NCBI GenBank assembly: GCA_019192545.1
Contig: JAHCMI010000040.1
Coordinates: 1-64,000, forward strand
From: Rivularia sp. MS3
Lineage (GTDB): Bacteria > Cyanobacteriota > Cyanobacteriia > Cyanobacteriales > Nostocaceae
Length of the DNA stretch: 64,000 bases
Direction: 5' to 3'
The notes under the pieces are model-generated. The model ran no database searches, was not told the DNA's origin, and worked only from the letters and a program-made list of their open reading frames with translations. Both the position numbers and the translations under genes were made by a program. Shown piece by piece: positions 13,053 through 42,825 of this stretch; within the stretch, counting starts at the first letter, position 1, and every line of letters starts with the position of its first letter.

Positions 13053-13228
13053 ATGGCAGAAGTTTTAAGTAAACCACAATTTCAAATATTAACTCATCCA
13101 AAAACAGGAGTAAAAACTGGAAGAATTTATTTTCCTGCATTGTTCTTAGCTGATTATCATGAAAGTATTTCTCAATGGCTACAAAAACAAGAAATTCTGT
13201 TCAATGAACAAGATATAAAACATTACCT
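13053..13228 (+). pseudogene. gene truncated at intron-fragment junction
   Basis: The start at 13053 (MAEVLSKPQFQ...) was chosen because the upstream extension to 12981 is not protein-like. About 58 codons read as a normal small plasmid protein. At about 13228 the sequence changes to the antisense of the group II intron ORF, and the frame ends soon after with intron-derived residues (RMPSPRPCS). The gene has therefore lost its 3' end. The family is not recognised. Confidence 0.6.
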
Positions 13229-14534
13229 TGCTTTTCTTAGGATGCCTTCTCCACGCCCATGCTCTTAGTTTTTCATAAACCATATATCCTAGTTTTTGAA
13301 AAATCTTTGAACTTACCCCTGTTGAGTAGTAGTTAGCCCACCCGTTTATGATTGGATTTAATTTTTTTATTAAAGCCAACTGGGGTGCTGCTTTGTGAGA
13401 TTTGATAACCGCTTCAATGTCACTTAAGTGAGATTTGCAGCTTTCTCTACTAGGTGAGGTTATGGTTTTGAAACCGTTTTTTGAGTGGGTTTTTCCAACA
13501 AAATGCTGTGTTATGTTGAAGCCTAAGAAGTTGAAACCTGGGTTCTTTCCGTTATATGGATTCAGTGTGTGGACTATGCTTGTTTTCTCTTGTTTGAGTT
13601 CAAGACCCAATTTTTTTAACCATTCGGAGATAATAATTTTTGCATTTTTTACCACTTCTTCCCTTTCGTGTAAAATCACGAAGTCATCGGCGTAACGAAT
13701 TAACGATATAGCAGAGCGTTTGTTTTTTCTACTTAGCTGTCTTCCATTTGAACGTTTAATGTCCAATGTTTCAGCATATTGCTTGATTCGTTCTTCCATG
13801 CCGTGCAGGGCGATGTTGGCGAGGAGAGGACTTAAACCCCCGCCTTGTGGTGTGCCAGTCTCCGTTGTAGTGAAGCTTTCTTTATCTACAACTCCTACTT
13901 TCAACCATGCCCGGATTTGACGACGTAGTTGTGGGAAGGTGTTTATTTTTGATAGAAGGGCTTCGTGGTTAATCTTGTCAAAACATTTAGCTATGTCTGC
14001 ATCTAAAGCGTATTTAGGCTTCCGTCTTATGGATAAAAAGATTGCTTCTATTGCATCATGACATGACCTACCGCTTCTGAATCCGTATGAATTTGGCTCG
14101 AATCTGGCTTCCCATTCTGGCTCTAGAGCCATTTTTACAAGAGTTTGTAGGGCGCGGTCTCTTATCGTAGGTATTCCTAGTGGTCTCTTCTCCTTTTTTC
14201 CGGGCTTGGGAATCCAAACTCGTCGGATAGAGTCCGCTTTGTTTTTCAAGGAAAGGCTCAAAGTTAATCTGAGTCTTTGAGGAGGGGTAAGTGATTTAAC
14301 ACCGTCCACTCCTGCCGTTTTTTTCCCTTTGTTATCCTGCGATATTCGTCGCACTGCTAGTGCTTTTGAGTACCATGATTTTAGGAGGAGCTTTTGTAGC
14401 CTGCGATATGTTTTAATATCTCCACGTTGCGCGGCTTGATAAATTCTATTTTGAAGCTTATACACACGACGTTCTAGCTTTCGCCAGTTTATCTTGTGCC
14501 ATTCTACCGTAGTCTTTAAACTCGTTTTAGACAT
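13179..14534 (-). CDS. ltrA: group II intron reverse transcriptase/maturase, C-terminally truncated
   Basis: A 451-residue reading frame. Reverse transcriptase motifs are clear: GIPTIRDRALQ (about 120-130), YGFRSGRSCHDAI (150-162), the first catalytic Asp region, GTPQGGGLSP (227-236) and the YADD box (281-284). Maturase domain X follows (INGWANYYS..., about 398-425). The DNA-binding/HNH endonuclease part is absent. The last 16 or so codons after RRHPKKSK are encoded by flanking non-intron DNA. It is probably inactive for retrohoming. Confidence 0.9.
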   Translation of the reverse strand: MSKTSLKTTVEWHKINWRKLERRVYKLQNRIYQAAQRGDIKTYRRLQKLLLKSWYSKALAVRRISQDNKGKKTAGVDGVKSLTPPQRLRLTLSLSLKNKADSIRRVWIPKPGKKEKRPLGIPTIRDRALQTLVKMALEPEWEARFEPNSYGFRSGRSCHDAIEAIFLSIRRKPKYALDADIAKCFDKINHEALLSKINTFPQLRRQIRAWLKVGVVDKESFTTTETGTPQGGGLSPLLANIALHGMEERIKQYAETLDIKRSNGRQLSRKNKRSAISLIRYADDFVILHEREEVVKNAKIIISEWLKKLGLELKQEKTSIVHTLNPYNGKNPGFNFLGFNITQHFVGKTHSKNGFKTITSPSRESCKSHLSDIEAVIKSHKAAPQLALIKKLNPIINGWANYYSTGVSSKIFQKLGYMVYEKLRAWAWRRHPKKSKVMFYILFIEQNFLFL

Positions 14535-15384: not shown

Positions 15385-18300
15385 ATGGCTATTACCCTAC
15401 AACACTTCTGTACAAAAACGGGTAAACCAATTATCGCTGAAGGCGAACCAATCACAGAAGCTATCGAACACTGCTTGGCAGAATACTTTGCTCCAAGTTC
15501 TACCTTCAAGTTGGGAATAGTATATCAGGGATTATCAACAGAAGAAGACCTCAAGCAATTTACAACAGAAGGATTAACACTGCAATTTGCAGCCGATAAT
15601 CGCTTCTACTTTATGGATGAGGAATTGCGAGAAAAGATTTTTGACGAACCCCACTTCGGTGCTGCATATGGCTCAAATATGTTCACACCCTGTCAAAGTT
15701 TTTCTGAAAGAGAAAATTTGCGAGTTTTAGTAGTGGATGCTGACACTGGTGAGAATGGTGGGGTGATGCCAAATTCTGAAGCAATTAAGTTAGTTGGTGA
15801 TGGCGATGGAAAAATAGATGCTGGATTACATAAGTCTTTAGGTAATGAGCCAGCAACACCATTTCAAACTCGTTTTGGTATTAAAGAAAGAAGTGCTGGA
15901 CTTGACCAAAATAATGATGTTAATAAAACTTGGCAGTTAGGAAAAGGTACATTTGCACCAAGGGATTTAAGTCAGGTAGGGAATGGGTATGATTTGGTAA
16001 TTTCTAACGAACAACTTAAAGGACGAGTACAGAAAGAGGAGTGGGGGAGTGGGAGAGCGGGAGAGAGGGGGAAAGAGCGAGAGAGTGAGGGAGGGAGAGA
16101 GAGAGGGAATGAACGAGAGTATACAACAGGTACAGAAAGAACGAATATTGTTGTAGAGCAATCCCTCACTTCCACCTCCCTCACTCCCTCACTCTCCCAT
16201 TCCCCCACTCCCCCCATCACCCCCTCCCCCACTCCTCTAAAACCTGGGGAGTATTTAATGAAAATAGGAATTGGAAACAAGACCAATGCTTACCACGGTA
16301 TAACTTCCACGGGCGCTCAATTCTGGAATTCTTTTCCTAAAGGGGTTGAAGATGATGTTCTTCCACGATTACAAAGACGTTTGGAAGAACTCAAAGATAT
16401 GGCTAATGACCCCAGAAAAATTGCTCAAGACTATATTGATTCAATTGATGCTAAATGTTTTCACCAAATACAAGCCCAGACAGAATCGGAAGATTTGATT
16501 GATTTTGAAAGCTTTGATTTAGGAGATATTGAGAATCTAATCGATGATATGTTTTTGTCAAATGATTGCGAGCAAAACTTGATATATCGTCTTCTCAAAG
16601 CGGATTTGAAAGAACACTGTCAATTATTAGAGCATCCTAAAATCATAGATAAACTTCAAGAACACTTGAAACAACAGTATATGGATTGCGCTACGGGAAG
16701 ATTTATCAAATTTGACTCAGCAATGGCGCAAACCTGTCATGATTTGACTGACAATGAAGTTTGTTATCCCAAATTCCCAGACGGTGCAGAATTGATTGTT
16801 TATCGTGGTCCCACTGCTAATTCCAACACGGTGGACGTTTACATAAATCGCCATTTACCAAATGAACCACACGATATTGGCACGATAAAGATGTCACCCC
16901 AAGGATTAAAGCATTCGCTATCCGATTGTGACGGAGATAGAATGGCGATATCTCCGATAAGCTCCGCTAACGCACTTTCATCGGACTTTCCCCACACAGC
17001 AGAAGAGATTAAACAGAAGCAATTAAAAGAAAATCGCTACTATGAAATAGTCAAACCCGATAAAAAAGCATACAAGGGTTCTTTTGAGCAAATAGCGTTA
17101 GATGCGATGGAGAATAAAATTGGTATAGTTGCCAATTTATGCATGAAAGGAATTGCTCTTGAAAACGAGTGTACTTCGATTCCACTAAAAGAAGCTCAGA
17201 AGTTTATTCAAGATATTTCTTGCGCTGCCATAGAAATGCTCAAAGCTGAAAACCATCATACTCATACAATTCAATATCCAGAAAATCTCCGAACGCAAAT
17301 AGTTGACTTAACAAAATTGTGTCAACCAGAAACTCAAAATAAAACTCAAATATATAAATTTAATAAACTGCCAGAAAATAATAAAAGTCTACCTAGAATC
17401 CCCGAATCAAAGATTGAAAAGGTTTTAGAAAAAATTGGTAAGTTTTATCATGATGTTGTTGGGATATTAGGGGGACAGCTACAAATAGAAGTCGATAGAG
17501 GTAAAAGTGCTAATCGCTCCGACCCAAAAATAGTAAATGCCTGTAATACCATTATCAAAAGCTTTGACGTTGCTCCGTGGGTTGAAGATAGAAATAACAA
17601 CGAAATTTATACTAAAAAGACGATGAATGTCAAAGGTCACTCCGCTATTGATAAAATGGCAAGCCGGACTAATGAAGCATTTTCACAAAGCGCAATCGTA
17701 CCGCGTTCAACCCAACAGTTTCAAACCTTTTTTAAGGGAGTTGAATTCACACCTGCACAAAAACAAAAAGCAGTTAATATTAAGAAAATATACGATTCAT
17801 TGATTCGTCGTGCAATTCAAATTAGTAAAGAAGTTAAACAAGCACCAGGTTTAAAAATTGTTGCAACTAGTCCTAAAGGTTTTCAAATAGATATTGTTGG
17901 TTTAGCTCAGAGAAAACATCCAAATATTTTTGATAATCGAAAACTTAATATTTCATTAATAGAAAATAAAAATAACTTTAATAAAGCTGACAACAAATGG
18001 ATAGCGATAGCACCTGTATTTGATGAACATGGAAAACCGAAGTTTAAAAGCAACGGTCAACAACAGCTTAAGCACCTGGGGTATATTTCAGAAACTTCTT
18101 TAAAGCAATTTCAAGGTAGTATTAAGCCATTTACCGAATTCAATAATTTAACTAAAAAAATTGAACCTGGATTAACATCAAGTCAAGTTCGAGCAGCATT
18201 CAAACAAGTAAAAGAGTTCGCAACTGCAACTCGTGAAAGTATCCCCGATTCAGAAAAAGAAGCAATTGCAGCTGCAATGTGGCAGATTTCAACAACGAGC

Positions 18301-19839
18301 AAAGATGATGCAAGATATGAATTTAGTAAAACATCAGCTGCATTCGCTGTATTTGGAGAAGAAATAATTGGAAGACTAGAACAACTGCAATTTACCGAAT
18401 TCGCTGTTGTGGGAACCCACAAACCCTGTAACGAACATTTGGGACGTAAATGGATAGGAGAAAAAGTTAAATGTACTATCGAACAAGCACCCGACCCTGC
18501 TAATCCGACACAGAATAAACGGTGGTTAGTAGCTGAAGATAAAAAATTGGGGGTATTTCGTAGCGAATCAGCACAGTTACCTATCGGTACTTCTTTTAGT
18601 GCAGAAATTACTTCTCCACCAAGTGCATCGGTTGTTATCACAAGTAGCAAAGGCAATCAATTAAAAGTAGGAAAATTGAAAAAGTATGAAGCAGTTCCAA
18701 GAGAATGGAACCAAGAAGAAGGAACGATAACAATTAAACTATCTAACGTTGGTTCTTTCGTTAAACCCATTGCTTTAGTTGATGATAAACCTTTGGGGGT
18801 AATTGATAAAGAATCATTTAAAGTATTAAGCAAGAAATTGAATTCAAGAGGTATTCAAATCGAAGGGTTTAAGTTTGAAGGTAAACTTGAATCATCACCT
18901 GCTACTATTGCTCATATCAAAGTTGACTCCCAAACAATTCAATATCCTCAAACTTGGATTAAAGAAGAACCTTTAGTTACAGAGAATAAAAAAAGTTTAT
19001 TATACGAATTAAAACCAATTCTTAAAGAAAAATATCAGGAAAAACAAAACAAAGGTTTATTACATGACTCGGAAGCATCTTTAGGTGTATTACCTATAAA
19101 AAATGAATATTTTGAATCTTTTTTGAAAGAAAAAAATATAGAACCAGAAGTTTTTCAGAAACTATCTGAGGAGATTGATAAAAAATTTGGTGTTGAAAGC
19201 TTGATTGGTATCGCTAACAAGGACAATATTGAAGAACTTTATTTTTGTGTTACTGTTCCTACAGAGATTTCTGAACAGAAGACAGCAGCTAGAATCAACG
19301 ATACATTAAATTTCCCTCTAGAATACGACCAGTTACAAAATGGACAAAGAACTAAATTTATCGCAATTGAGTTGAATGAATTACAAGAATTAATTAACCA
19401 AACTGAAAGTCAAACAAAACACTCGACCACGCAACCGACTGAAGTTAAAGCAACTGACGAAAAAGATGTAAGCGCAGCAGTTCCTATACAAGATAATTCA
19501 AATTCGACTCAGAAATCTACTAGAGAAGTTTCTATGAAAGTGAAACGCGAAGAATGGGAAAAACAAATGTTAAAACAGGCTCTTGCGAGTTTAAAAGAAA
19601 ATCCCGCGAATGCTGGTGAGGAAATACAAACAGCTACGTTCTCAGATGGTCAATATCGAGTTATTCACCATGTACCTTCAGAAATGCTGCGGATTGTTGA
19701 TGAGAAGGAAAATCATCGCGGGACTTTGTATAAAGCGCAGAGAGGGAAACCCTTTGAGGTATGCAAGTTTACTGAGGATGAGAAAAGAAGCTTTGAGCGT
19801 AATCCGATACAGGAACAAAAAGCTTTGCAACAGGAGTAG
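15385..19839 (+). CDS. putative single-chain RNA polymerase (double-psi barrel) protein
   Basis: A 1484-residue protein. Residues about 472-523 match the catalytic double-psi barrel of RNA polymerase beta': YRGPT (cf. RAPT) near 473-477, an IKMSP stretch (cf. HPLVC), then SDCDGDRMAIS at 513-523 (cf. ADFDGDQMAVH), where D514, D516 and D518 would bind the catalytic Mg. Upstream, KGTFAPRDLSQ (187-197), YDLVISNEQLKG (202-213) and LMKIGIGNK (291-299) resemble the beta-type barrel, with K293 and K299 as candidate catalytic lysines. This suggests a two-barrel single-chain polymerase like Bacillus phage YonO or QDE-1, rather than a multisubunit enzyme. About 70 repeat-encoded residues (217-285) interrupt the first barrel region. 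The C-terminal 700 residues are unassigned. RBS is weak (AGAAG). Polymerase activity is inference. Confidence 0.65.
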   Translation: MAITLQHFCTKTGKPIIAEGEPITEAIEHCLAEYFAPSSTFKLGIVYQGLSTEEDLKQFTTEGLTLQFAADNRFYFMDEELREKIFDEPHFGAAYGSNMFTPCQSFSERENLRVLVVDADTGENGGVMPNSEAIKLVGDGDGKIDAGLHKSLGNEPATPFQTRFGIKERSAGLDQNNDVNKTWQLGKGTFAPRDLSQVGNGYDLVISNEQLKGRVQKEEWGSGRAGERGKERESEGGRERGNEREYTTGTERTNIVVEQSLTSTSLTPSLSHSPTPPITPSPTPLKPGEYLMKIGIGNKTNAYHGITSTGAQFWNSFPKGVEDDVLPRLQRRLEELKDMANDPRKIAQDYIDSIDAKCFHQIQAQTESEDLIDFESFDLGDIENLIDDMFLSNDCEQNLIYRLLKADLKEHCQLLEHPKIIDKLQEHLKQQYMDCATGRFIKFDSAMAQTCHDLTDNEVCYPKFPDGAELIVYRGPTANSNTVDVYINRHLPNEPHDIGTIKMSPQGLKHSLSDCDGDRMAISPISSANALSSDFPHTAEEIKQKQLKENRYYEIVKPDKKAYKGSFEQIALDAMENKIGIVANLCMKGIALENECTSIPLKEAQKFIQDISCAAIEMLKAENHHTHTIQYPENLRTQIVDLTKLCQPETQNKTQIYKFNKLPENNKSLPRIPESKIEKVLEKIGKFYHDVVGILGGQLQIEVDRGKSANRSDPKIVNACNTIIKSFDVAPWVEDRNNNEIYTKKTMNVKGHSAIDKMASRTNEAFSQSAIVPRSTQQFQTFFKGVEFTPAQKQKAVNIKKIYDSLIRRAIQISKEVKQAPGLKIVATSPKGFQIDIVGLAQRKHPNIFDNRKLNISLIENKNNFNKADNKWIAIAPVFDEHGKPKFKSNGQQQLKHLGYISETSLKQFQGSIKPFTEFNNLTKKIEPGLTSSQVRAAFKQVKEFATATRESIPDSEKEAIAAAMWQISTTSKDDARYEFSKTSAAFAVFGEEIIGRLEQLQFTEFAVVGTHKPCNEHLGRKWIGEKVKCTIEQAPDPANPTQNKRWLVAEDKKLGVFRSESAQLPIGTSFSAEITSPPSASVVITSSKGNQLKVGKLKKYEAVPREWNQEEGTITIKLSNVGSFVKPIALVDDKPLGVIDKESFKVLSKKLNSRGIQIEGFKFEGKLESSPATIAHIKVDSQTIQYPQTWIKEEPLVTENKKSLLYELKPILKEKYQEKQNKGLLHDSEASLGVLPIKNEYFESFLKEKNIEPEVFQKLSEEIDKKFGVESLIGIANKDNIEELYFCVTVPTEISEQKTAARINDTLNFPLEYDQLQNGQRTKFIAIELNELQELINQTESQTKHSTTQPTEVKATDEKDVSAAVPIQDNSNSTQKSTREVSMKVKREEWEKQMLKQALASLKENPANAGEEIQTATFSDGQYRVIHHVPSEMLRIVDEKENHRGTLYKAQRGKPFEVCKFTEDEKRSFERNPIQEQKALQQE
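16032..16240. repeat. purine/pyrimidine inverted repeat inside the polymerase-like gene
   Basis: A G/A-rich run (about 16032-16110) and its C/T-rich counterpart (about 16161-16240) form an imperfect inverted pair, each made of GTGGGAGA-like or CTCCCAC-like units. It is in frame and encodes a low-complexity Arg/Gly/Glu-rich segment followed by a Ser/Thr/Pro-rich one. The same repeat type recurs at 25.2, 32.2, 42.7, 44.5, 46.4 and 50.8 kb. Confidence 0.85.
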
Positions 19840-19896: not shown

Positions 19897-20691
19897 CTAG
19901 TTCATCAGTTCCAATACTGACGGGAACCAGCGCAACTGCTGGACTGTTTTATTATTTCCAGCTGCTTCTTGCAAAATAACTTTAGCATGAGGTTCACCTA
20001 ACTCTGTTGGCATCCACGCTGGTTCTTTATTGGGATTCTGATATTGCAAGCCTAACTCCTTGAGTCGCTGGTTCATTTTTCTCGCACTCAGTTTTGTACC
20101 AGTGCGATTACTATACAATTCGCTCAGTTTGGTAACACTAAGCAAGCGGTCTTCAACTGGCAGCGGTAAAAGTTTCTTTGCTTCCTCCATCGTTCCTATT
20201 AACTCTGGATGATGCTTACCAATTTCATTCGCAACCACACCAGCAATCAAATTAGGGTGAATGCTAGCAATTGATAGCACTGTAACGGTAGCTTCCTTGA
20301 TTTTTTCAATAGCAGGTGTTAAAGGTGCAGTCTCAGCAATTACTTTGGCACGGACAATTTTTTCGCACTCTAAAAAGTAGCGGCGAATAATTTTCCCTTG
20401 TTCGGTACCTGCCATCATTCCAAAAGATTTCAGACATTCTACTGTTATCTTGATTACTTCTTTGGGACGACCGCTCGGAGGCTGAGAGGCTTGCTGCGTA
20501 GAGTTTACACTCATTTGGGTGAAAACCTCAAAATCTAATCCCTTTTCAAAATTTCTAACCAATTTTTCTTTCGCTTGCTGCTTTTTGTTGTAACGAAGCC
20601 ACACCCAAGCCTCATCAAAATCAATCGGGAACTGTTCATCGGAATTGTACAGAGCCATTGCTAACTCTTGAGAAAATGTTAAGTTTGTCAT
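19897..20691 (-). CDS. phage-type antirepressor (AntA/AntB-like)
   Basis: The start was moved to 20691 (MTNLTFSQEL) because GGAGT precedes it; the longer frame to 20766 merely translates the 7-bp repeats. It encodes 264 residues. Residues about 25-110 carry an AntA/AntB-type antirepressor domain (FDEAWVWLRYNKKQQAKEKL, GLDFEVFTQM, GRPKEVIKITVECLKSFGMMAGTEQGKIIRRYFLECE). The C-terminal region ends in NNKTVQQLRWFPSVLELM, a module also present in the KilA-N protein at 61663. Such proteins counter phage repressors or act as DNA-binding regulators. Confidence 0.8.
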   Translation of the reverse strand: MTNLTFSQELAMALYNSDEQFPIDFDEAWVWLRYNKKQQAKEKLVRNFEKGLDFEVFTQMSVNSTQQASQPPSGRPKEVIKITVECLKSFGMMAGTEQGKIIRRYFLECEKIVRAKVIAETAPLTPAIEKIKEATVTVLSIASIHPNLIAGVVANEIGKHHPELIGTMEEAKKLLPLPVEDRLLSVTKLSELYSNRTGTKLSARKMNQRLKELGLQYQNPNKEPAWMPTELGEPHAKVILQEAAGNNKTVQQLRWFPSVLELMN

Positions 20692-20710
20692 TGCTGTGAC
20701 TCCTATACTC

Positions 20711-20848
20711 CAATTCGCAATTCGCAATTCGCAATTCGCAATTGATAATATTAACTGCCGTCGCAAATTGCTCGGGATTGCCTAACTCCGCAGGTTCCAA
20801 GCCCCCACTGATTATAATTGCGAATTGCGAATTGTTAATTGCGAATTG
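20711..20848. repeat. 7-bp tandem repeats in inverted orientation (STRR)
   Basis: CAATTCG repeated four to five times at 20711-20744, and the reverse complement (CGAATTG units, slightly degenerate) at 20816-20848. Heptamer tandem repeats are typical of heterocystous cyanobacterial genomes. The pair could form a long hairpin in the region upstream of the antirepressor gene. Confidence 0.9.
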
Positions 20849-22317: not shown

Positions 22318-22983
22318 TTAAGGTGATTTAACCCGCAATAAACAATAATCACTTTTACGAGCAATATGTTTACTTTTAGCATTATTAACTACAGCCCTTT
22401 GCTCCGGATTATTAGTACAATTTAAATTGCTCAAACTTTCAGAATTCCAAGTAACAATATTCCTTGCTAACCGACCTTGAGGACTTTTTAACCACCGTAA
22501 ACTTTCAACTTGTTCAACTGTTAGTAACTTTGGTTTTCCAGATGCATATCCACCACCCAGCCAAACCGGAACAGATAACCCAGTTAAAACACCAAACCCA
22601 ATTGCTGCTATTATTAGCCCTATCGCTGGTAACATTACAACTAAACGGCTTCGCTCTTTCGACTCACAATGCTTAATAAGTCGGTTTACCATCGAACGGA
22701 TTTCCACTTCCTGACCACTTACAGCAGTACGCTTTGCTTTCTCCAAATGTTCGTAAATTGCTTCCGACCAACGTTTAAATAATTGGTCTAATTCTGACGG
22801 CTTATCTTCCAACAAAACTTGAAGTTGACCAGTAGAAAGCATTATTAGAAATAAAGGGTCACTTGTAGATAATCCATGTTCAACAGCTACTGCTAAAACT
22901 CTTCTTTGAAAATCTGCATCTTTTCCTTCAAGTAACTTATTCAGATAACTTTCATTTTTCGCTTTTCGTAAACTATGAATCAT
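22318..22983 (-). CDS. DUF6753-like plasmid protein with membrane segment
   Basis: A 221-residue protein. The N-terminal half contains GKDADFQRRVLAVAVEHGL and DPLFLIMLSTGQLQVLLEDKP (residues 20-62), which recall the DUF6753 family seen on cyanobacterial plasmids. One strong hydrophobic segment lies at about 114-140 (MLPAIGLIIAAIGFGVLTGL). The C-terminal part is basic. The start overlaps the end of the upstream gene by 11 bases, so translation is probably coupled. It belongs to the leftward partition operon; role unknown. Confidence 0.7.
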   Translation of the reverse strand: MIHSLRKAKNESYLNKLLEGKDADFQRRVLAVAVEHGLSTSDPLFLIMLSTGQLQVLLEDKPSELDQLFKRWSEAIYEHLEKAKRTAVSGQEVEIRSMVNRLIKHCESKERSRLVVMLPAIGLIIAAIGFGVLTGLSVPVWLGGGYASGKPKLLTVEQVESLRWLKSPQGRLARNIVTWNSESLSNLNCTNNPEQRAVVNNAKSKHIARKSDYCLLRVKSP

Positions 22984-23998: not shown

Positions 23999-24718
23999 TT
24001 ATTTACCTTCTGCCTTCTGCTTTCTTTTCCACATTTGAGTCCTTTCAATAGCTTGATTTGATTCACTTAAAAAAGTAGATAATCTTTGCTGCGACATTAT
24101 AGGCATTGTTTTTTCAATTTCTTTTGCATCAAACCGAAATTTATTAGAGTCAATAAAATATCTATCTCCCGGATACAGAAGCGGAAATTCAATTATTTTT
24201 AAAGTCTTTTCGTGCTTTTTGCACAACTCTTTAAAGGACGGATTATCCTTCAAAAAACTCCAATCATCTGTTTTACCTAAATTCTTGACAAACACATGAG
24301 GCATTTTATCTTTGTACAATTTTATGGATTGTTTGAATAAATCTATAGATTCAAAACCACCATCACAGACAAACCACTTACAGATATCTACACCGTATTT
24401 ATCTGCTACCTCTAGTAAACGTCCGTTTTTTATCCAATTATTAACTTTTGGAAACACGTTCGCTGGAAGATTGACTATAACGGGTTTTCCCCTAGCTAAT
24501 TCAAAAATTATGTCGGCTTTATCCCCTTTGTTTACAGCTTCACTAAATTCAGCATCAACAGCATAATCATAGAAACGCTTCACATCTTGATTCGTTATAT
24601 CTGCATCTACCAAGGTGTGTTCCAATTTATTGTCAATTGCATACTGAACCATAACGCGAGTAAACAGCGACTTCCCAACTCCTCCTTTTTCACCATCAAT
24701 CAAATGTATTCTTGCCAT
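23999..24718 (-). CDS. ParA/TraL-like P-loop ATPase
   Basis: The start was set at the ATG at 24718 (MARIHLIDGEKGG); the frame runs two codons further up to a TTG. It encodes 239 residues. The deviant Walker A GEKGGVGKS spans residues 9-17, followed by DADITNQDV (switch I-like) and later VCDGGFES. It resembles the MobD/TraL branch of ParA/MinD ATPases that work beside relaxases, rather than classical ParA with an N-terminal HTH. Its C-terminal KRKQKAEGK is encoded by a GGCAGAAG-type repeat (24000-24025). It lies directly downstream of the ParR candidate. Confidence 0.8.
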   Translation of the reverse strand: MARIHLIDGEKGGVGKSLFTRVMVQYAIDNKLEHTLVDADITNQDVKRFYDYAVDAEFSEAVNKGDKADIIFELARGKPVIVNLPANVFPKVNNWIKNGRLLEVADKYGVDICKWFVCDGGFESIDLFKQSIKLYKDKMPHVFVKNLGKTDDWSFLKDNPSFKELCKKHEKTLKIIEFPLLYPGDRYFIDSNKFRFDAKEIEKTMPIMSQQRLSTFLSESNQAIERTQMWKRKQKAEGK

Positions 24719-24728
24719 AACCAATTTG

Positions 24729-25187
24729 CTAGTTAAAAGTTTCGCTATCTGTTGTCATTCCTGCTAAATTCCATGCTTGCAAATTAGAATCAGATGATTC
24801 TTCATTTCGGTCTGGTGGTGATAACTCAGTACTATAATTTGATGTTGCATCTTTTTGAATGTTTGTTTTTTCCAAACCTCCAAATACGGTACATAAAACA
24901 TCTGTAACTGCGTGTTCATCTACTTTTATTGCAATGCTGACGAATTGAAGATGATTTGCGATCGCCTTTACCGAATCCAAAAATATCAATTCCAAAGTTT
25001 CGCGAGAATAACTACCTTCACTGTAAAGTGCTAACGCTATATAGTATGCGTTTAGAGCAGTCATTATCATTACGGTTTTATTTTGAAATGGATGCAGGCT
25101 TTCATTCTGGATGTAACTAAGCATTTTTGCTCTGTCTGAATCGAAAGCTGTCTGATAGCGCCATGTGAAGTCTTTCTTTTTGTTCAT
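24729..25187 (-). CDS. ParR-like partition adaptor candidate
   Basis: A 152-residue protein. The N-terminal WRYQTAFDSDRAKMLSYIQN segment and following helices, with an acidic, Ser/Asn-rich C-terminus, recall ParR-type adaptors that bind centromere repeats through a ribbon-helix-helix and contact ParM through the C-terminus. Position immediately downstream of the parM-like gene is the classical parMR order. The sequence similarity alone is weak, so the call rests mostly on context. Confidence 0.45.
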   Translation of the reverse strand: MNKKKDFTWRYQTAFDSDRAKMLSYIQNESLHPFQNKTVMIMTALNAYYIALALYSEGSYSRETLELIFLDSVKAIANHLQFVSIAIKVDEHAVTDVLCTVFGGLEKTNIQKDATSNYSTELSPPDRNEESSDSNLQAWNLAGMTTDSETFN

Positions 25188-25199
25188 ATTCCTGAAGTT

Positions 25200-25345
25200 T
25201 AAGGAGTGGGGGAGAGGGAGAGTGGGAGAGTGGGGGAATGTCGGAATAAGTAATAGTTTCCTAGAGACAAATACTTCTCTTAGAAGCCACTTTCCTCGGC
25301 TCCCCCACTCCCCTGCTCCTCCACTCCCCCACTCCTCCCCCCTCT
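25200..25345. repeat. purine/pyrimidine inverted repeat at the parM 3' end
   Basis: G/A-rich GAGTGGGGGAGAGGGAG units at about 25204-25237 and C/T-rich CTCCCCCACTCC units at about 25299-25345. The second half lies inside the parM-like gene and encodes its last 18 residues. Confidence 0.85.
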
Positions 25346-26446
25346 AATGACTGCTTTAACTTTAATACCGTGATAAACCGACAGCGCCCATACGTCGGCT
25401 AGACGATTTCCCAACCATTGTTCGTTAAGTGTTTGCGGAATTTTCACATCACCATGCCAGACTATAGGTATTGTCGGAAAAACTGCATCTAACTCCTCTC
25501 GCAAATAATCAGCCGTACCACCACAGATAATTAATTCATCCAATTCATTGTTATTCGGCAGTACTTCTTTTAACCAATTCACAAGCGCAATCGCATATTC
25601 CGCTCTAGAAGAATTTAAAACAGATATAATCTTTTCAATTTCAGCATCCTGAAGATTACCAGAACTACATAGATGGTAAAAATGTTGTGTTTTCGGTTCA
25701 TCACCAGCAGCGACAATCGCTTCAATTAACTCTCCAGCTTCTAAGCCTGATGTACCTTCGATAACTTTTTCTACCATTTTCGCCATACCCAATTTCGCAG
25801 TTTTACCCCGATTCAAAATACCGCGCCGAGATATGATTGCAGAAGCATTTCGATATCCCAACATCACTAAACCGATGACTTTACGTCTTATTGCTTCACC
25901 AGTATTTTTGCAATACATCGCATAAATTCCACCACTTTCAGGAAAACACTCGTAACCAATTAAATTGGCATTGACCTTTCCTGTTGGCGTATCGAATTGA
26001 GCTAAAGCTTCCTTGAGCATAGGTTTTAGTAATGCCGAATCTTCAAACTCCCCTGGTGGTAAAAGCAATGCTAATGAAACGTCAAAGGATTCAGATAACT
26101 TAAATTTCTGCTTTATTACCCACACCGCAGCTAGAGTTTTGAATAAGGCAAGTTCGTATTTACGAGGTTTTAATCTTGGTGTTGCACCATAGGCACTTCT
26201 TGCCAAATAACCGATTGCTCGATAATCTTCACCAATTCCAACCCAAGCCGCGTTTTCGGGATAAGCATTGTTTAAATTACGAGTCTGAAAAACTAGAGAC
26301 TCATAGTTCGCTTTGATTACACTTGGCTCCATCCAGATTGCCTTTGCCTTACCACCACGAATCTGCACTACTACTTTGGTGCCGCTTCCACCAAAATCTA
26401 TCGATATAGTAACTAACGGGTATGCTTGTTTGTTTAATCTGCCCAT
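25280..26446 (-). CDS. parM: ParM/StbA-like actin-type segregation ATPase
   Basis: A 388-residue actin/Hsp70-fold protein. The phosphate-1 loop IDFGGSGTKV spans 16-25, phosphate-2-like VMLGYRNASAI lies at about 213-223, and the adenosine motif ICGGTADYL at about 329-337. ParM polymerises with ATP to push plasmid copies apart. The leftward operon continues with the ParR candidate and ParA-like genes. The last 18 residues (GGRSGGVEEQGSGGAEE...) are encoded by a mobile-type repeat and have no counterpart in typical ParM. An inverted repeat lies 37 bases upstream of the start. Confidence 0.85.
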   Translation of the reverse strand: MGRLNKQAYPLVTISIDFGGSGTKVVVQIRGGKAKAIWMEPSVIKANYESLVFQTRNLNNAYPENAAWVGIGEDYRAIGYLARSAYGATPRLKPRKYELALFKTLAAVWVIKQKFKLSESFDVSLALLLPPGEFEDSALLKPMLKEALAQFDTPTGKVNANLIGYECFPESGGIYAMYCKNTGEAIRRKVIGLVMLGYRNASAIISRRGILNRGKTAKLGMAKMVEKVIEGTSGLEAGELIEAIVAAGDEPKTQHFYHLCSSGNLQDAEIEKIISVLNSSRAEYAIALVNWLKEVLPNNNELDELIICGGTADYLREELDAVFPTIPIVWHGDVKIPQTLNEQWLGNRLADVWALSVYHGIKVKAVIRGGRSGGVEEQGSGGAEESGF

Positions 26447-26988: not shown

Positions 26989-27375
26989 ATGTCACCGAAA
27001 TACAAAAAACATACAGTTCGATTTGAAATGGTGCTGACAAAGGAGCAGAATGACCATTGGCAAGCACTAGCGAAATCCTGCGGTATCAGTAAAGCAGAAT
27101 TGATTAGACGTAGAATGTCTGGATGTCACATAAAAAGTATCCCCGAAGTCAATTGGAAATGTTACTGGCAACTATCGAAAATTAGTAAGGATATTAGTCA
27201 ACTAGCTTCTTGTCACAATATTGCGATTACAAATGGTTTAATTCCATCACCTGTTGAATCTATTCCTTTTGAAGATTTACTCAAAGAGATTTCTTCCTTA
27301 CGCTTGTGTTTGGTTTTGGAAAACAATGATGAAATAGATGATGAACTAGAAATTAGCAATGATTGGCAAGATTAA
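26989..27375 (+). CDS. mobC: MobC-like relaxosome accessory protein
   Basis: A 128-residue protein beginning with a basic strand (KKHTVRFEMVLTKEQNDHW) and a helix pair with ISKAELIRRRMSG, the pattern of ribbon-helix-helix MobC/NikA proteins that help the relaxase open oriT. The C-terminal half is helical and acidic. It overlaps the relaxase gene by 17 bases, the usual mobC-mobA arrangement. No clear RBS precedes the ATG. Confidence 0.8.
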   Translation: MSPKYKKHTVRFEMVLTKEQNDHWQALAKSCGISKAELIRRRMSGCHIKSIPEVNWKCYWQLSKISKDISQLASCHNIAITNGLIPSPVESIPFEDLLKEISSLRLCLVLENNDEIDDELEISNDWQD

Positions 27376-28276
27376 AAAAGGTAAAAGCTTTACGGGATTA
27401 ACTAAATACATTCTTGAGAAGGAAGGAGCAGAATTAATTTGCACAAACCTTGCAGGAGAGACACCACAAGAATTTTATAGACAACTAGCAGCTACAAAAC
27501 AACTGAATTGTAAAGTGCGATCGCCAGTCAGTCACATTAGTATCAGCTTCCCATTTCACGAAAAACCAATTGATGAAGAATTGGAAGAAATTGCAGAAGA
27601 AACACTCAAAGGTATGGGGTTTGGGAAAAACCTCTATTTCGCAGCATCCCATAATGACTGTAATCATTTCCATCTCCATATCGCGGCAAGTCGCATCAAT
27701 ATCGATGGTGAGTGCGTATCTGACTGGTACGATAAACGACGCTTAGAAAAGGTTTTGAGAAATTTAGAATCCCGTTTCAATTTGACCTCCGTACCGAATT
27801 CATGGGAAGTAAACCGCACAGCACCGTCTACCGGACAAAAGCGACGTATGTTTCGAGAAAATCAAGAATTTGAATTAGGATTGCGCTCGGAGCCAGCAGA
27901 CAAAAGCGCGGTTGAAAAAATTCAAGATGTAATAGAAGACACTATTCAACCAGGAATGAAGTTTGCTCAATTTGTTGAACATTTGAAAGTGAATGGTGTA
28001 GAAACATCGTTAAAGTTAAGCTCGGAAGGTATAATTCAAGGTATTTCATATTCTACAGATGGTGTTACATTTGCTGGAAGTAAGTTAGGTAGAAATAAAC
28101 AAGCTTGTACTCTCAAAGGGTTAGCAATGCGAGGTATTAAATTTGATTTAGAATATGATGAAAATGCATTAACAAGATGCATTGGTAAAGATGACAAAGA
28201 ACAAGATGATGTTGCATCTTTATCGAAAATTAATAAGACTACACGTTCCAAAAATTCCCAAATAGAATTTGATTGA
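27359..28276 (+). CDS. mobA: conjugative relaxase, MobA/VirD2-like
   Basis: A 305-residue relaxase. The catalytic Tyr candidate is Y17 (GLTKYILEKEGA). The metal-binding histidine motif is H98-NDCN-H103-F-H105-L-H107, and motif II-like SHISISFPFHE lies upstream. It nicks oriT and stays covalently bound to the transferred strand, which the coupling protein (33423-35246) delivers to the secretion channel. A C-terminal region (190-260) resembles the extension of other plasmid relaxases. It is shorter than relaxase-helicase types, consistent with a MOBP-like class, though the class was not tested. Confidence 0.9.
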   Translation: MIGKIKKGKSFTGLTKYILEKEGAELICTNLAGETPQEFYRQLAATKQLNCKVRSPVSHISISFPFHEKPIDEELEEIAEETLKGMGFGKNLYFAASHNDCNHFHLHIAASRINIDGECVSDWYDKRRLEKVLRNLESRFNLTSVPNSWEVNRTAPSTGQKRRMFRENQEFELGLRSEPADKSAVEKIQDVIEDTIQPGMKFAQFVEHLKVNGVETSLKLSSEGIIQGISYSTDGVTFAGSKLGRNKQACTLKGLAMRGIKFDLEYDENALTRCIGKDDKEQDDVASLSKINKTTRSKNSQIEFD

Positions 28277-28384: not shown

Positions 28385-29833
28385 TTAACAATTTATTCTT
28401 AACACCCTTAATATTTCTTTTACAGGTGCTTTCTCTACCTCCATCCGCTGTACCTTGGATAAAGTTCCCTTGGGAATGTACCTTGATGACTTAATTAGGC
28501 GATCGCCCATTACCCAGATTTCGTATTGATAATATGCCTCACAATATTCTTTACCTTTCTTGGTAACAGTGCGGTAATAAATGCAGCCGCTGCCATCACC
28601 CTTATGTCGGCGCGTTTTCCTAGAGGATATCTTATCTGCTGGCTTATCTAAGGGGAATTCTTCATCCTCATAGACTTTCCTAGAGGATATTTTATCTGTT
28701 GGCTTATCCTCTAGGAACTTTTCGCTATCACTTGTTTTCCTAAAGGATATATTCTCATCTGACTTATCTAAGGGGAATTCTTCATCTTCACATACTTTCC
28801 TAGAGGATATCTTATCTGTTGGCTTATCCTCTAGGAACTTTTCGCTATCACTCGTTTTCCTAGAGGATATCTTATCTGCTGACTTATCTAAGGGGAATTC
28901 TTCATCCTCATAGACTTTCCTAGAGGATATTTTATCTGCTGGCTTATCTAAGAGGAACTTTTCGCTATCACTCGTTTTCCTAGAGGATATATTCTCATCT
29001 GACTTATCTAAGGAGAATTCTTCATCTTCACGTACTTTCCTAGAGGATATCTTATCTGTTAGCTTATCCTCTAGGAAATGGCTTGGTAAAGACACAAAAC
29101 CATGCGGTTCAAACACCTCCCTAAACCACTCGCTTCTTAACCCCCAGTAAACCAATACATGAGATTGCCGTGCAGAATTTCTAGGTTGATAATCTTCACT
29201 TAAAAATTTAATCCGTCCCGTCCAGAAACAAACGGGTTGAGATTTCAATACTGGAGACAACCATTTAGTGTCTGTGGCAGCCGGGACAAGTGCAATAGCT
29301 TCGGTAACTCGTTTCGATTTAATTTCAGCTTGCAGTTTCTCCATCCATACACTCGGTTGGGAATAAGGAGGATTCATAAATACACGTCCTTCCCATTCTC
29401 TAATCAATCCGTCATCGCAAGCAGTGTAATGTCCTTTGCAAGAGATGTGTTTACCATCATCTGCACAAGGGTCTAGGTCTATTTCTCCAAGCACCTGGAC
29501 TACTAGTTCAACTATATAGGGCGGTGTGTACCAGCGGTCGGAAGATTTTTTCTTACGTGCGGGGTTTGAGGAGTGTGAGGAGGTATGTTGAGGTATTTCT
29601 TCTCTTTCTTGAAAATTAGGCAGTCGAGAAGAGGTAAAATCATTCTTGGTTATAGAATTCTCCTGTAATTGACTTTCTTGTAAAACTTCCACAACTGTGG
29701 AAACTTCTTTGCACTCAAGAGGAATATTATCGGGTTCGTCCCAGGCGGGGTCATATCTAACACTATTCCAATCGCCTGTATAACTTTGTTTTTTGGGTTG
29801 CTCATATTGTTCTACATCAAAAAGCATCGCCAT
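28385..29833 (-). CDS. phage-type Dam adenine methyltransferase with repeat linker
   Basis: 482 residues in three parts. Residues about 98-260 form a DNA N6-adenine methyltransferase of the phage Dam type, with DPCADD at 121-126 (AdoMet pocket) and the catalytic NPPY at 154-157. Residues about 252-405 consist of 20-residue repeats alternating DKISSRKVxEDEEFPL and DKxSSRKTSDSEKFL. The C-terminal part (about 408-482) is a small basic domain (GSGCIYYRTVTKKGKEY, RYIPKGTL) also found in other cyanobacterial proteins. It probably methylates element DNA and may protect it from host restriction. Target sequence unknown. Confidence 0.85.
   Translation of the reverse strand: MAMLFDVEQYEQPKKQSYTGDWNSVRYDPAWDEPDNIPLECKEVSTVVEVLQESQLQENSITKNDFTSSRLPNFQEREEIPQHTSSHSSNPARKKKSSDRWYTPPYIVELVVQVLGEIDLDPCADDGKHISCKGHYTACDDGLIREWEGRVFMNPPYSQPSVWMEKLQAEIKSKRVTEAIALVPAATDTKWLSPVLKSQPVCFWTGRIKFLSEDYQPRNSARQSHVLVYWGLRSEWFREVFEPHGFVSLPSHFLEDKLTDKISSRKVREDEEFSLDKSDENISSRKTSDSEKFLLDKPADKISSRKVYEDEEFPLDKSADKISSRKTSDSEKFLEDKPTDKISSRKVCEDEEFPLDKSDENISFRKTSDSEKFLEDKPTDKISSRKVYEDEEFPLDKPADKISSRKTRRHKGDGSGCIYYRTVTKKGKEYCEAYYQYEIWVMGDRLIKSSRYIPKGTLSKVQRMEVEKAPVKEILRVLRINC
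28617..29077. repeat. 60-bp tandem coding repeats
   Basis: About eight 60-bp units with the common core TAGAGGATAT...TTATCT begin near every 60th base from 28621. Two variants alternate, giving a 120-bp higher-order period. They encode the charged linker of the Dam-type protein. Confidence 0.95.
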
Positions 29834-29844
29834 TTTTCACTTCC

Positions 29845-31191
29845 TCAAGTCAAATTTTTAAAACAAGTAAATTGTGCGTCAAATAGCAGTTTTATAGTTC
29901 CCGTTGGCCCACCCCTATTTTTGGCAATAATTACTTCTGCAATACCTCTATCAACCGTATCGGGGTGATAATATTCATCACGGTAAAGGAGTAATACTAA
30001 ATCCGAATCTTCTTCAATTCGCCCAGATTCTCTCAAGTCTGACATCATAGGACGTTTGATATTTCGACTTTCTACACCGCGATTTAACTGTGACAATATG
30101 ACAACAGTAGTGTTACATTCGCGTGCTAATTGTTTTAATCCTCGGGTAATTTTTCCTATTTGAAAAGCCAAATTATAATTATCACCATCCGTGCCTTCCA
30201 TTAATTGCAAATAGTCAATTCCAACCATACCAATGCGATTATGTTTAGCAATAAGTTGTTTAACTTTTGAACGAATCAAATTAACTGTTAATACAGGCGA
30301 ATCGTCAATGTAAATAGGCAGTTCGCTTAACTTGCTAATCGATTTTGCTAAAGGATGCCATTGGGATTTGCTAATAGAACCGTTTTGCAGATGAATCGAT
30401 TCAATAGAAACATCTTGAGATAAAAATCTATCACCCCATTCTTCCCTACCCATCTCAAGGCTAAAAATTACGGTTGGCAGTGATTCTAGCGATGAAATGT
30501 TAAAAGCTAAATTGCCTAAAAATGATGATTTACCCATAGCAGGACGACCAGCGATTGTTATAAGTTTTTCTGGTTTGAATCCTCCTAGCATTGCATTCAG
30601 GTTACAAAATCCAGTTGTTATCCCGAATGACCTTGTACCCATATTTCTTTCTTCAATACGTTCAAAGGCATCCATCAGGATAGACGACAATGAGGTTGGC
30701 TCCGATTGTGACGCGATAGCGCTGTTATTTACCTCTAAAACCTTTGAAAATGCTGTTTCTAACTGTTTACCTATCTCTTGAGTTTGGTCGTGCGCCAACT
30801 CGAAAATTTCGCCGCTTACATGAATCAATTGCCTTCGGTAGTATTTATCCATCACCAACTGGGCTAAGGCATCAATGTTAACTGCGGATACAGTCCGGTC
30901 TACAAGCGAAGCTAATTTATTCCTACCACCACAGAATGAAAGTTGATTATGGTCAGATAGCCAATTAATAACTGCGATTAAATCCGTGGGATTGCCTTTG
31001 TCATGAAGTTCTAGGGCAGCGATATAAATATCGCGATGGGCGCTGATGTAGAAAGCTTTTGCAACAAGAATGTCTTTGACTCTAGCAATCGCGGAAGGGT
31101 CAAGCAATATACCACCCAAAATTGCTTCTTCTGCTTCGATATTTTGAGGAGGTATTTTGTCACTTCTAACAAAACTTAAGTTTTCAGCCAT
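29845..31191 (-). CDS. dnaB: DnaB-type replicative helicase
   Basis: 448 residues, the length of chromosomal DnaB (about 450-470). The N-terminal helical domain includes PQNIEAEEAILGGILLDP (15-32) and the C-terminal RecA-like domain has Walker A GRPAMGKS (215-222), Walker B-like GMVGIDYLQLM and a late SDLRESGRIEEDSDLVLLLYR segment. The hexamer unwinds the replication fork. Its start overlaps the end of the initiator gene by 8 bases. This placement suggests the initiator loads this helicase at the iteron cluster. Confidence 0.95.
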   Translation of the reverse strand: MAENLSFVRSDKIPPQNIEAEEAILGGILLDPSAIARVKDILVAKAFYISAHRDIYIAALELHDKGNPTDLIAVINWLSDHNQLSFCGGRNKLASLVDRTVSAVNIDALAQLVMDKYYRRQLIHVSGEIFELAHDQTQEIGKQLETAFSKVLEVNNSAIASQSEPTSLSSILMDAFERIEERNMGTRSFGITTGFCNLNAMLGGFKPEKLITIAGRPAMGKSSFLGNLAFNISSLESLPTVIFSLEMGREEWGDRFLSQDVSIESIHLQNGSISKSQWHPLAKSISKLSELPIYIDDSPVLTVNLIRSKVKQLIAKHNRIGMVGIDYLQLMEGTDGDNYNLAFQIGKITRGLKQLARECNTTVVILSQLNRGVESRNIKRPMMSDLRESGRIEEDSDLVLLLYRDEYYHPDTVDRGIAEVIIAKNRGGPTGTIKLLFDAQFTCFKNLT

Positions 31192-32107
31192 AATTCTTCT
31201 GTTGCAATATTGGACTATTTGCTAAAAGTTCGCGGACATCTGCACGACTAGACTTTGCCCAATTGAACCAGCACTTGTAAAAATCGTCTTTGAAAAATAG
31301 CTGTAAATTCTTATCATCACCGAGCTTAATTGCTCCTTCCACAACAACTTGCAGTTGTCCGTACCACATTTGGTGTTGCGATTCGCTGTAAGCCTCGAAG
31401 TTATATTTACAATTTTGCTTCTTCGTGTCGAGCCACTCACAGCGCAATTCTTCAAAGTTGGCTTCAATCCACTTGATAGTTAGTTGCGGAGGTTTTGGTA
31501 ATGAAGCTGCTTTCTTTTTTGAAAATTCCAAAAAATTTTCTCTCTCGCCTTCTGAGAGAGTCTGTATAAAGTCTGAATAAGTCTGAGGGGATTTGGAGCC
31601 ATTGCTAGGCAAGGGTTCTGGCTCTCGATTTGGACAATTCTGTCCATTTTTTGACAAATCTGTCATAACTTGGACAAATCTGTCATCATTTGGACAGGAT
31701 TGTCCAGAGTCGGACAAATCTGTCATTTTAATTTTTTCAGAGGATTTATTTATTCTTTTCTGGTGACAAAGTTCTTTCGCTTTCTTACCAGCTAAATTCT
31801 GACCACGAACTAAAATCGGTTCCCAAACATAAAGTTCTAGTTCTTCCAAGCGCGAAAGAGAGCGTTTGATTTGTCGCGAGCTGATTCCTATTGCTGAAGA
31901 TATTTCGGGAATTTTCGGTAATTCAATCATCTTATCTCCAAAAGGGTCTATCATTTGTAAATAAGACCATAAAGCCCAATCAGCAGCAGTCAGTTTTCCA
32001 CGAATAGCTTTGATAGCCATTGAATTAGGTGTTTGATAAAAACCGTTTGTTTCCACACTCTTATGAATGCCATCGGAGACAGCATTTGCCCTTTCTTGAA
32101 GTGTCAT
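31184..32107 (-). CDS. winged-helix replication initiator candidate (lambda O-like organisation)
   Basis: 307 residues. Residues about 25-95 form a winged helix-turn-helix (LTAADWALWSYLQM, ISSAIGISSRQIKRSLSRLEELELYVW). Residues about 125-165 are encoded by the iteron DNA and contain repeated MTDLS and CPN motifs. The C-terminal 130 residues are helical, Trp-rich, and may contact the helicase. Phage lambda O has the same order: N-terminal DNA-binding domain, origin inside the gene, C-terminal helicase-recruiting part. No named Rep family is recognised, so the role rests on the iterons and the overlap with dnaB. Confidence 0.65.
   Translation of the reverse strand: MTLQERANAVSDGIHKSVETNGFYQTPNSMAIKAIRGKLTAADWALWSYLQMIDPFGDKMIELPKIPEISSAIGISSRQIKRSLSRLEELELYVWEPILVRGQNLAGKKAKELCHQKRINKSSEKIKMTDLSDSGQSCPNDDRFVQVMTDLSKNGQNCPNREPEPLPSNGSKSPQTYSDFIQTLSEGERENFLEFSKKKAASLPKPPQLTIKWIEANFEELRCEWLDTKKQNCKYNFEAYSESQHQMWYGQLQVVVEGAIKLGDDKNLQLFFKDDFYKCWFNWAKSSRADVRELLANSPILQQKNYG
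31631..31765. other. origin candidate: five 20-bp iterons plus AT-rich stretch
   Basis: Five copies of GGACAAATCTGTCA-like dyads start at 31632, 31652, 31672, 31692 and 31712, an exact 20-bp period. Each has GACA and TGTC half-sites. An AT-rich stretch (31726-31765) adjoins. Because 20 is not divisible by 3, the copies fall in three different reading frames, so conservation must act on DNA and not on protein. Confidence 0.75.
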
Positions 32108-32151
32108 ACATTTAAAATCCTTTAATTTACTTGAGGTAAGAAGTATTAATT

Positions 32152-32236
32152 ATTCCCCCACTCCCCCACTCTCCCACTCTCCCACTCCTTCCCTCCCTCT
32201 CTCACTCCCTCCCTCCTACTCCCCCACTCCTCTCTA
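32152..32236. repeat. pyrimidine-rich repeat between rep and 126-aa gene
   Basis: Tandem CCCACTC and CTCCCAC units over about 80 bp, matching the C/T half of the inverted repeats at 25.3, 42.8 and 50.9 kb. No G/A partner was found close by. It ends at the stop of the next gene upstream. Confidence 0.8.
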
Positions 32237-42687: not shown

Positions 42688-42825
42688 GGAGTGGAGGAGG
42701 GGGAGAGGGGGAGAGTGGGGGAAAGGAGGGAGTTACAGAAGTAAAGAATTAGAAGGTAGAAGAATCGTTTACTGATTCATCCCCCGCTCCCCCACTCCCC
42801 CACTCCTCCCCTCCTCCTCTCTGAC
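42688..42825. repeat. purine/pyrimidine inverted repeat between VirB9 and VirB10 genes
   Basis: GGAGTGGAGGAGGGGGAG at about 42690-42735 and CTCCCCCACTCCCCCACTCC at about 42780-42825. The C/T half lies in the VirB10 gene and encodes its last 14 residues. Confidence 0.85.

Follow-up and report, generated by a model that had tools for sequence, protein, structure and literature searches.

Does a mobile element of a cyanobacterium carry an RNA polymerase of its own? Plasmids are generally thought to depend on the RNA polymerase of their host, and the question is raised by a long open reading frame (ORF), 15385-19839, in a 64,000-nucleotide stretch of DNA from Rivularia sp. MS3 (the window). A preliminary description, drawn from the sequence alone, had proposed that its product, one chain of 1484 amino acids (aa), is a candidate YonO/QDE-1-like polymerase that unites both barrels and is encoded on a conjugative element. 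The ORF lies on the forward strand and contains no internal stop. To judge from its motifs and profile matches, the product is almost certainly a single-chain double-psi beta-barrel (DPBB) RNA polymerase, very probably a distant relative of the polymerases that act in gene silencing in plants and fungi.

Conservation was assessed in an alignment of 37 members, consisting of a 33-member family set plus four relatives that match the Pfam model PF05183 for RNA-dependent RNA polymerase (RdRP). One row lacks the N-terminus (N-terminal counts are out of 36), and several rows are close kin and not independent. Two groups of motifs follow one another in the single ORF, at residues 118-213 (DPBB1) and 474-518 (DPBB2). 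The first comprises D118, G138-D139, Q161, R163, K187-G188-T189 and K212-G213; the second comprises R474-x-P476, N488 and D514-x-D516-G517-D518, followed by P536 and K560. The order first reported, R474-G-P476-T, IKMSP and then S-D514-C-D516-G517-D518, was found again and is far beyond chance. The aspartate triad, described as intact, is also kept by the homologues: D514 and D516 in 36 of 37 members each, G517 and D518 in all 37. All 37 members have P476 and N488, and 30/37 have R474. Near the N-terminus, Q161, G188 and G213 are found in 36/36 and R163, K187 and K212 in 35/36.

In contrast to the triad, the GIGNK segment (residues 295-299) that had been put forward as the source of the beta-type lysine did not survive: of 36 members, 15 have Lys at position 299, 11 have Arg and 7 have Val. 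This poor conservation rules out K299 as the catalytic lysine, and K187 and K212 are conserved instead. In QDE-1, according to PMC1750930, the DPBB1 invariants are Q736, K743 and K767 and the triad is D1007/D1009/D1011. Q161, K187 and K212 can be matched to these three invariants by order and spacing: the two lysines are 24 residues apart in QDE-1 and 25 in the window polymerase; among 36 members the distance is 23-26 in 22 and 27-43 in the remaining 14. Judged by conservation, the family has kept the set of catalytic residues known from two-barrel RNA polymerases. The sole broken triad among the 37 (NFGGD) belongs to a Leptolyngbya boryana copy, L024, which is also changed at R163, K187 and K212; a joint loss of this kind would be expected of residues that act together. 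The L. boryana copy (L024 6001-8772) is apparently a dead paralogue.

The suggested kinship with YonO, the polymerase of Bacillus phage SPbeta, was borne out by profile-profile comparison. When the family was aligned with hhalign to a YonO profile of 35 sequences, a score of 103.6 (P 1e-10) was obtained over 493 collinear columns that run through both barrels and span residues 39-758 of the window polymerase. The 22 decoys (YonO reversed, the family reversed and 20 YonO profiles with shuffled columns) reached at most 22.8. Four subclades, which together hold 34 of the 37 members (L024, L045 and L046 were left out), were also compared with YonO on their own and scored 48.0 (the window clade, nine members), 46.5, 42.9 and 28.8. 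None of 31 subclade decoys reached any of these scores. The short clade's own support is thin, because its score is closest to that of the best decoy (24.4). Identical YonO residues are aligned to D514, D516, D518, G517, R474, P476, N488, R163, K212, K560, D704 and K707. Like the window polymerase, YonO is a single chain in which DPBB1 precedes DPBB2 with its DxDGD motif; it differs in its length (839 aa), in its C-terminus and in lying in a phage late region, whereas the window family belongs to a plasmid backbone.

A link to the eukaryotic RdRPs is provided by the four relatives already mentioned (L136-L139), which exceed the PF05183 cut-off (L138 again on a repeat search) and match the window polymerase at E-values of 6e-16 to 1e-19. 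The same search gave matches in none of 14 control genomes. The family shares with QDE-1 and its kin the Gln-Lys-Lys of DPBB1 and the Asp triad of DPBB2, but differs in its bacterial plasmid setting, and the window polymerase itself is unmatched by PF05183 up to E 1. The best Protein Data Bank (PDB) matches of two family profiles, the Pol IV subunit NRPD1 (E 0.4) and RDR2 (E 0.06), are weak; both fall at the triad and so weakly suggest the same place. With cellular RNA polymerase the family has the barrel region of beta' in common (hhalign score of 42.0 to the host RpoC1, where the YonO profile scores 24.1), but it lacks a separate beta subunit, and its best score to the host RpoB (19.5) is at noise level. 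The YonO comparison, the PF05183 relatives and the conserved catalytic set together uphold the initial proposal of one chain with both barrels.

The gene is real and under purifying selection. Against two close homologues, the ratio of nonsynonymous to synonymous substitution (dN/dS) is 0.17 and 0.18 for the whole chain, 0.09-0.16 for residues 1-213, 285-800 and 801-1210, and 0.37-0.38 for residues 1211-1484. The C-terminal half had been called long and unexplained; most of it proved to be family core, which reaches about residue 1200, and only residues ~1211-1484 are variable, fast evolving and unmatched. The linker between the barrels (residues 214-284), with a dN/dS of 0.59 in the one pair computed, is derived from an inverted repeat with arms at 16035-16097 and 16176-16238, and is shorter in the homologue L001. 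Palindromic repeats with an 8-nucleotide (nt) period (GGAGTGGG / TCCCCCAC) are dispersed in the element, at 16035-16238, 25201-25345 and 32146-32233; the first of these sits in frame between the two barrels.

The favoured, and likely, reading is that the product is a single-chain, two-barrel polymerase of the YonO/eukaryotic-RdRP branch, competent in catalysis, and would transcribe particular genes of its element from DNA. By analogy with YonO, DNA would be copied into RNA with Mg2+ held by the D514/D516/D518 triad. The setting suggests that the enzyme acts on its own element, separately from the host RNA polymerase, and its main output would most likely be transcripts of particular element genes. 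In PMC5467207, YonO is described as a strict DNA-dependent RNA polymerase that strongly prefers DNA templates, needs its triad and transcribes the phage late genes. Template choice, initiation or the clearance of RNA-DNA hybrids may be supplied by the variable C-terminus, by RNase HI (in two relatives) or by the neighbour genes of other clades (see below).

Several results count against this reading. hhalign places K187 on Ser288 and Q161 on Met264 of YonO, with K212 on Lys316, and the DPBB1 match to YonO is incomplete because the first two fall on Ser and Met. Single-sequence searches of Pfam, PHROGs and PDB gave no significant match for the window polymerase. An AlphaFold2 prediction for residues 1-1200 of the polymerase, made with 13 close rows, reached a confidence (pLDDT) of 33 and yielded no usable structure; a prediction was also made for the relative YonO. 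Some copies are found on contigs of chromosomal size: L002 in a record of 8.95 Mb and a short-clade copy on G195 C1 (5.8 Mb). Finally, among k-mers of 7 to 12 nt upstream of 31 window genes none rose above shuffles as a promoter-like motif would, a test of low power because the window alone was tested.

The family is found well beyond this element. Homologues in genome contigs make up 10 loci, up to ~90% identical, and 89 plasmid records hold 104 places with the family; all organisms in two overlapping listings, each covering 60 of the 89 records, are cyanobacterial by genus name. Members occur in 37 of 148 genomes from the order and, when a profile of other clades is used, in 31 of 292 from across the phylum. 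One plasmid with a homologue is plasmid C of Trichormus variabilis ATCC 29413. Rivularia sp. MS3 itself carries four copies, one on C108, the contig of the window, and one each on C131, C157 and C103. Among 60 plasmid rows listed, 47 have one place and 13 have two, and some two-place plasmids carry two diverged copies (Pseudanabaena). The plasmid matches listed are mostly annotated as 'hypothetical protein', two as 'ribonuclease H', and a few are unannotated. A viral origin was considered and set aside: tblastn found no match among 50,697 phage records, SPbeta included, and five scans of viral_contigs, with short patterns that reach mainly close relatives, yielded no confirmed relative.

Clustering of neighbour genes in 17 selected loci, the window's included, with unequal flanks and with the window, L001 and L002 as close kin, places the polymerase gene in a backbone of partition and transfer genes (Table 1). 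The ParR-like protein owes its name to its place beside ParM. The antirepressor gene, pointed out earlier as a neighbour, is there in the window, but recurs in only 4/17 loci; relaxase-type neighbours are found in 12/17 (two clusters of 6). That the element is conjugative, as first supposed, is supported by its relaxase and coupling-protein genes, with weaker matches to the type IV secretion system (T4SS). The last 2,070 bases of C108 (81,969 bp) showed no terminal overlap with its first 3,000, and its circularity is therefore unproven. Three other features of this DNA may be recorded. Just upstream of the polymerase gene, the sequence of the reverse-strand ORF 13179-14534 resembles that of a group II intron-type reverse transcriptase. 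Tandem repeats of 60/120 nt lie at 28613-29077 inside a Dam methylase ORF (28385-29833). CHAT-STAND NTPase, WD40 and TIR-AAA genes stand in a row farther along the contig (C108 67.4-76.1 kb; L147 5419-14080) and likely encode conflict-system proteins.

Table 1. Features of the window and of two fused relatives (L022, L164); fractions give the neighbour's count among 17 loci.
Feature	Coordinates	Strand	Basis
Predicted single-chain two-barrel (DPBB) RNA polymerase, 1484 aa	15385..19839	+	ORF reading, family alignments, hhalign to YonO
DPBB1 (beta-type) motifs, residues 118-213	15736..16023	+	conservation; QDE-1 invariants (PMC1750930); barrel limits inferred
Palindromic low-complexity repeat, in-frame linker (~residues 217-285) between barrels	16035..16238	.	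inverted repeat and alignment
DPBB2 (beta'-type) motifs, residues 448-560	16726..17064	+	conservation; alignment to YonO triad; barrel limits inferred
Conserved motif QIEVDRGKS, residues 700-708 (D704, K707)	17482..17508	+	aligned to YonO TIDFAKT region
Variable C-terminal extension, residues 1211-1484	19015..19836	+	no significant family match; relaxed dN/dS (0.37-0.38)
Antirepressor	19897-20766	-	phrog_5817 9e-9; Pfam ANT 0.011, under cut-off
DUF6753 protein, backbone neighbour (10/17)	22318..22983	-	PF20538 1.8e-72; clustering
ParA/TraL-like ATPase, backbone neighbour (10/17)	23999..24724	-	NF010461 3.3e-7, far under model cut-off; clustering
ParR-like small partner (13/17)	24729..25187	-	clustering; name inferred from position
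ParM/StbA-type partition protein (12/17)	25280..26446	-	phrog_691 1.9e-8; homologues annotated ParM/StbA; clustering
Relaxase	27359-28276		
DnaB helicase	29845-31191		
Lambda-O-like replication initiator	31184-32107	-	phrog_345, E 1e-3, weak
T4SS coupling protein	33423-35246		
TrbI-like protein	42769-44457		under Pfam cut-off
Giant polymerase with RNase HI, 2805 aa	L022 5908-14322		
Giant polymerase with RNase HI, 2448 aa	L164 8908-16254		

The place of the gene in a partition and maintenance backbone bears on an alternative that is unlikely but survives best, namely that the product of the polymerase is not mRNA but RNA for replication or origin activation (primers or R-loops) of the plasmid that carries it. 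One might expect such an enzyme where co-resident plasmids each bring their own copy, as do five in Nostoc sp. C052 and three in Nostoc sp. ATCC 53789. However, the element has another candidate for initiation in the weakly matched O-like gene: four 20-nt-spaced iterons (TTTGGACAAATCTGTC-like) lie within it at 31628-31726, and this gene with its iterons next to DnaB is probably a plasmid origin. These genes weaken the case for the RNA polymerase as replication initiator; since a candidate initiator and a helicase are already encoded on the element, transcription is preferred to priming.

Two giant Gloeothece polymerases also bear on replication RNA. They carry an RNase HI domain, at residues 2188-2319 of 2805 and 2017-2149 of 2448, and in both alignments the D, E, D and D are present that we take to be the catalytic residues. 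An ssb gene lies 1.1 and 2.1 kb upstream of the respective genes, which would suit an enzyme whose product serves replication, but just two such fusions were seen. Other clades have partners of a different kind. Eleven short-clade loci were read (L162, L163, L165-L173); L165 and L170 represent a single plasmid of 76,597 bp, which leaves 10 distinct loci. An unnamed gene of 304-549 aa is present in 10/11, on the same strand and directly upstream in 9/11 (8/10 distinct); in L172 it lies 1.4 kb upstream on the opposite strand. An HU-like gene is near the polymerase in 9 of the 11, once at a distance of 18 kb. Either the upstream gene or the HU-like gene could possibly encode a polymerase subunit or factor. 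In six of eight mid-clade loci (L174, L176-L180) an unnamed gene of 571-761 aa follows within 5 kb downstream, adjacent in four. Pfam and PDB searches gave no name for the conserved neighbours of the short and mid clades. A wider proposal, tentative and somewhat less probable than not, is that the family is a replicon-specific RNA polymerase forming a backbone module of many large cyanobacterial plasmids, next to their partition and transfer genes, which would transcribe or prime the plasmid independently of the host enzyme, sometimes with an RNase HI of its own to clear the hybrids that it makes.

The relaxase-type neighbours raise a second alternative, that the polymerase acts on the single-stranded plasmid DNA that enters by conjugation and so makes the first transcripts in the recipient. 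Mobility typing of the 89 plasmid records gave 38 conjugative and 16 mobilizable plasmids, as this would lead one to expect, but 35 are non-mobilizable (14 of 27 records with a short-clade query), and the idea is improbable. An RdRP in silencing or defence, like QDE-1 and RDR2, is more doubtful still. The solved structures nearest to the branch are those of RdRPs, Pfam gives that name to some of the family, and STAND and TIR genes are present farther along the contig. Yet the defence role first imagined found no support at the gene itself: PADLOC models did not match the polymerase, nor three other proteins, up to E 0.1 (no search was made for Argonaute or Dicer-like genes), the recurring window-clade neighbours are partition and transfer genes, and YonO, of the same branch, is a DNA-templated enzyme (PMC5467207). 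That the protein is a catalytically dead descendant with a DNA-binding or structural role, as the joint losses in the L. boryana copy might suggest, is scarcely credible given a triad kept in 36/37 members, the window copy included, and the low dN/dS of the core.

'YonO-like' proteins of cyanobacteria have already been mentioned in print. PMC7598289 refers to probable mobile elements in some Firmicutes and Cyanobacteria, and PMC7824862 names mobile-element relatives of YonO and the RdRPs, the NCgl1702-like polymerases, to which the present family can be likened by description only. The plasmid-backbone setting, the RNase HI fusions and the conserved neighbours were not found described in the literature consulted, although older key papers may list some of the proteins.

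The family is big, little studied and widespread on cyanobacterial plasmids, and the favoured reading offers a function for a large gene that has mostly been annotated as hypothetical. If that reading is true, a widespread family of single-chain two-barrel polymerases encoded on cyanobacterial plasmids would depart from the supposed dependence of plasmids on the host polymerase. The family, which can be assayed directly, would then comprise present-day kin of the single-chain ancestor postulated for the cellular RNA polymerases and the eukaryotic RNA interference polymerases.
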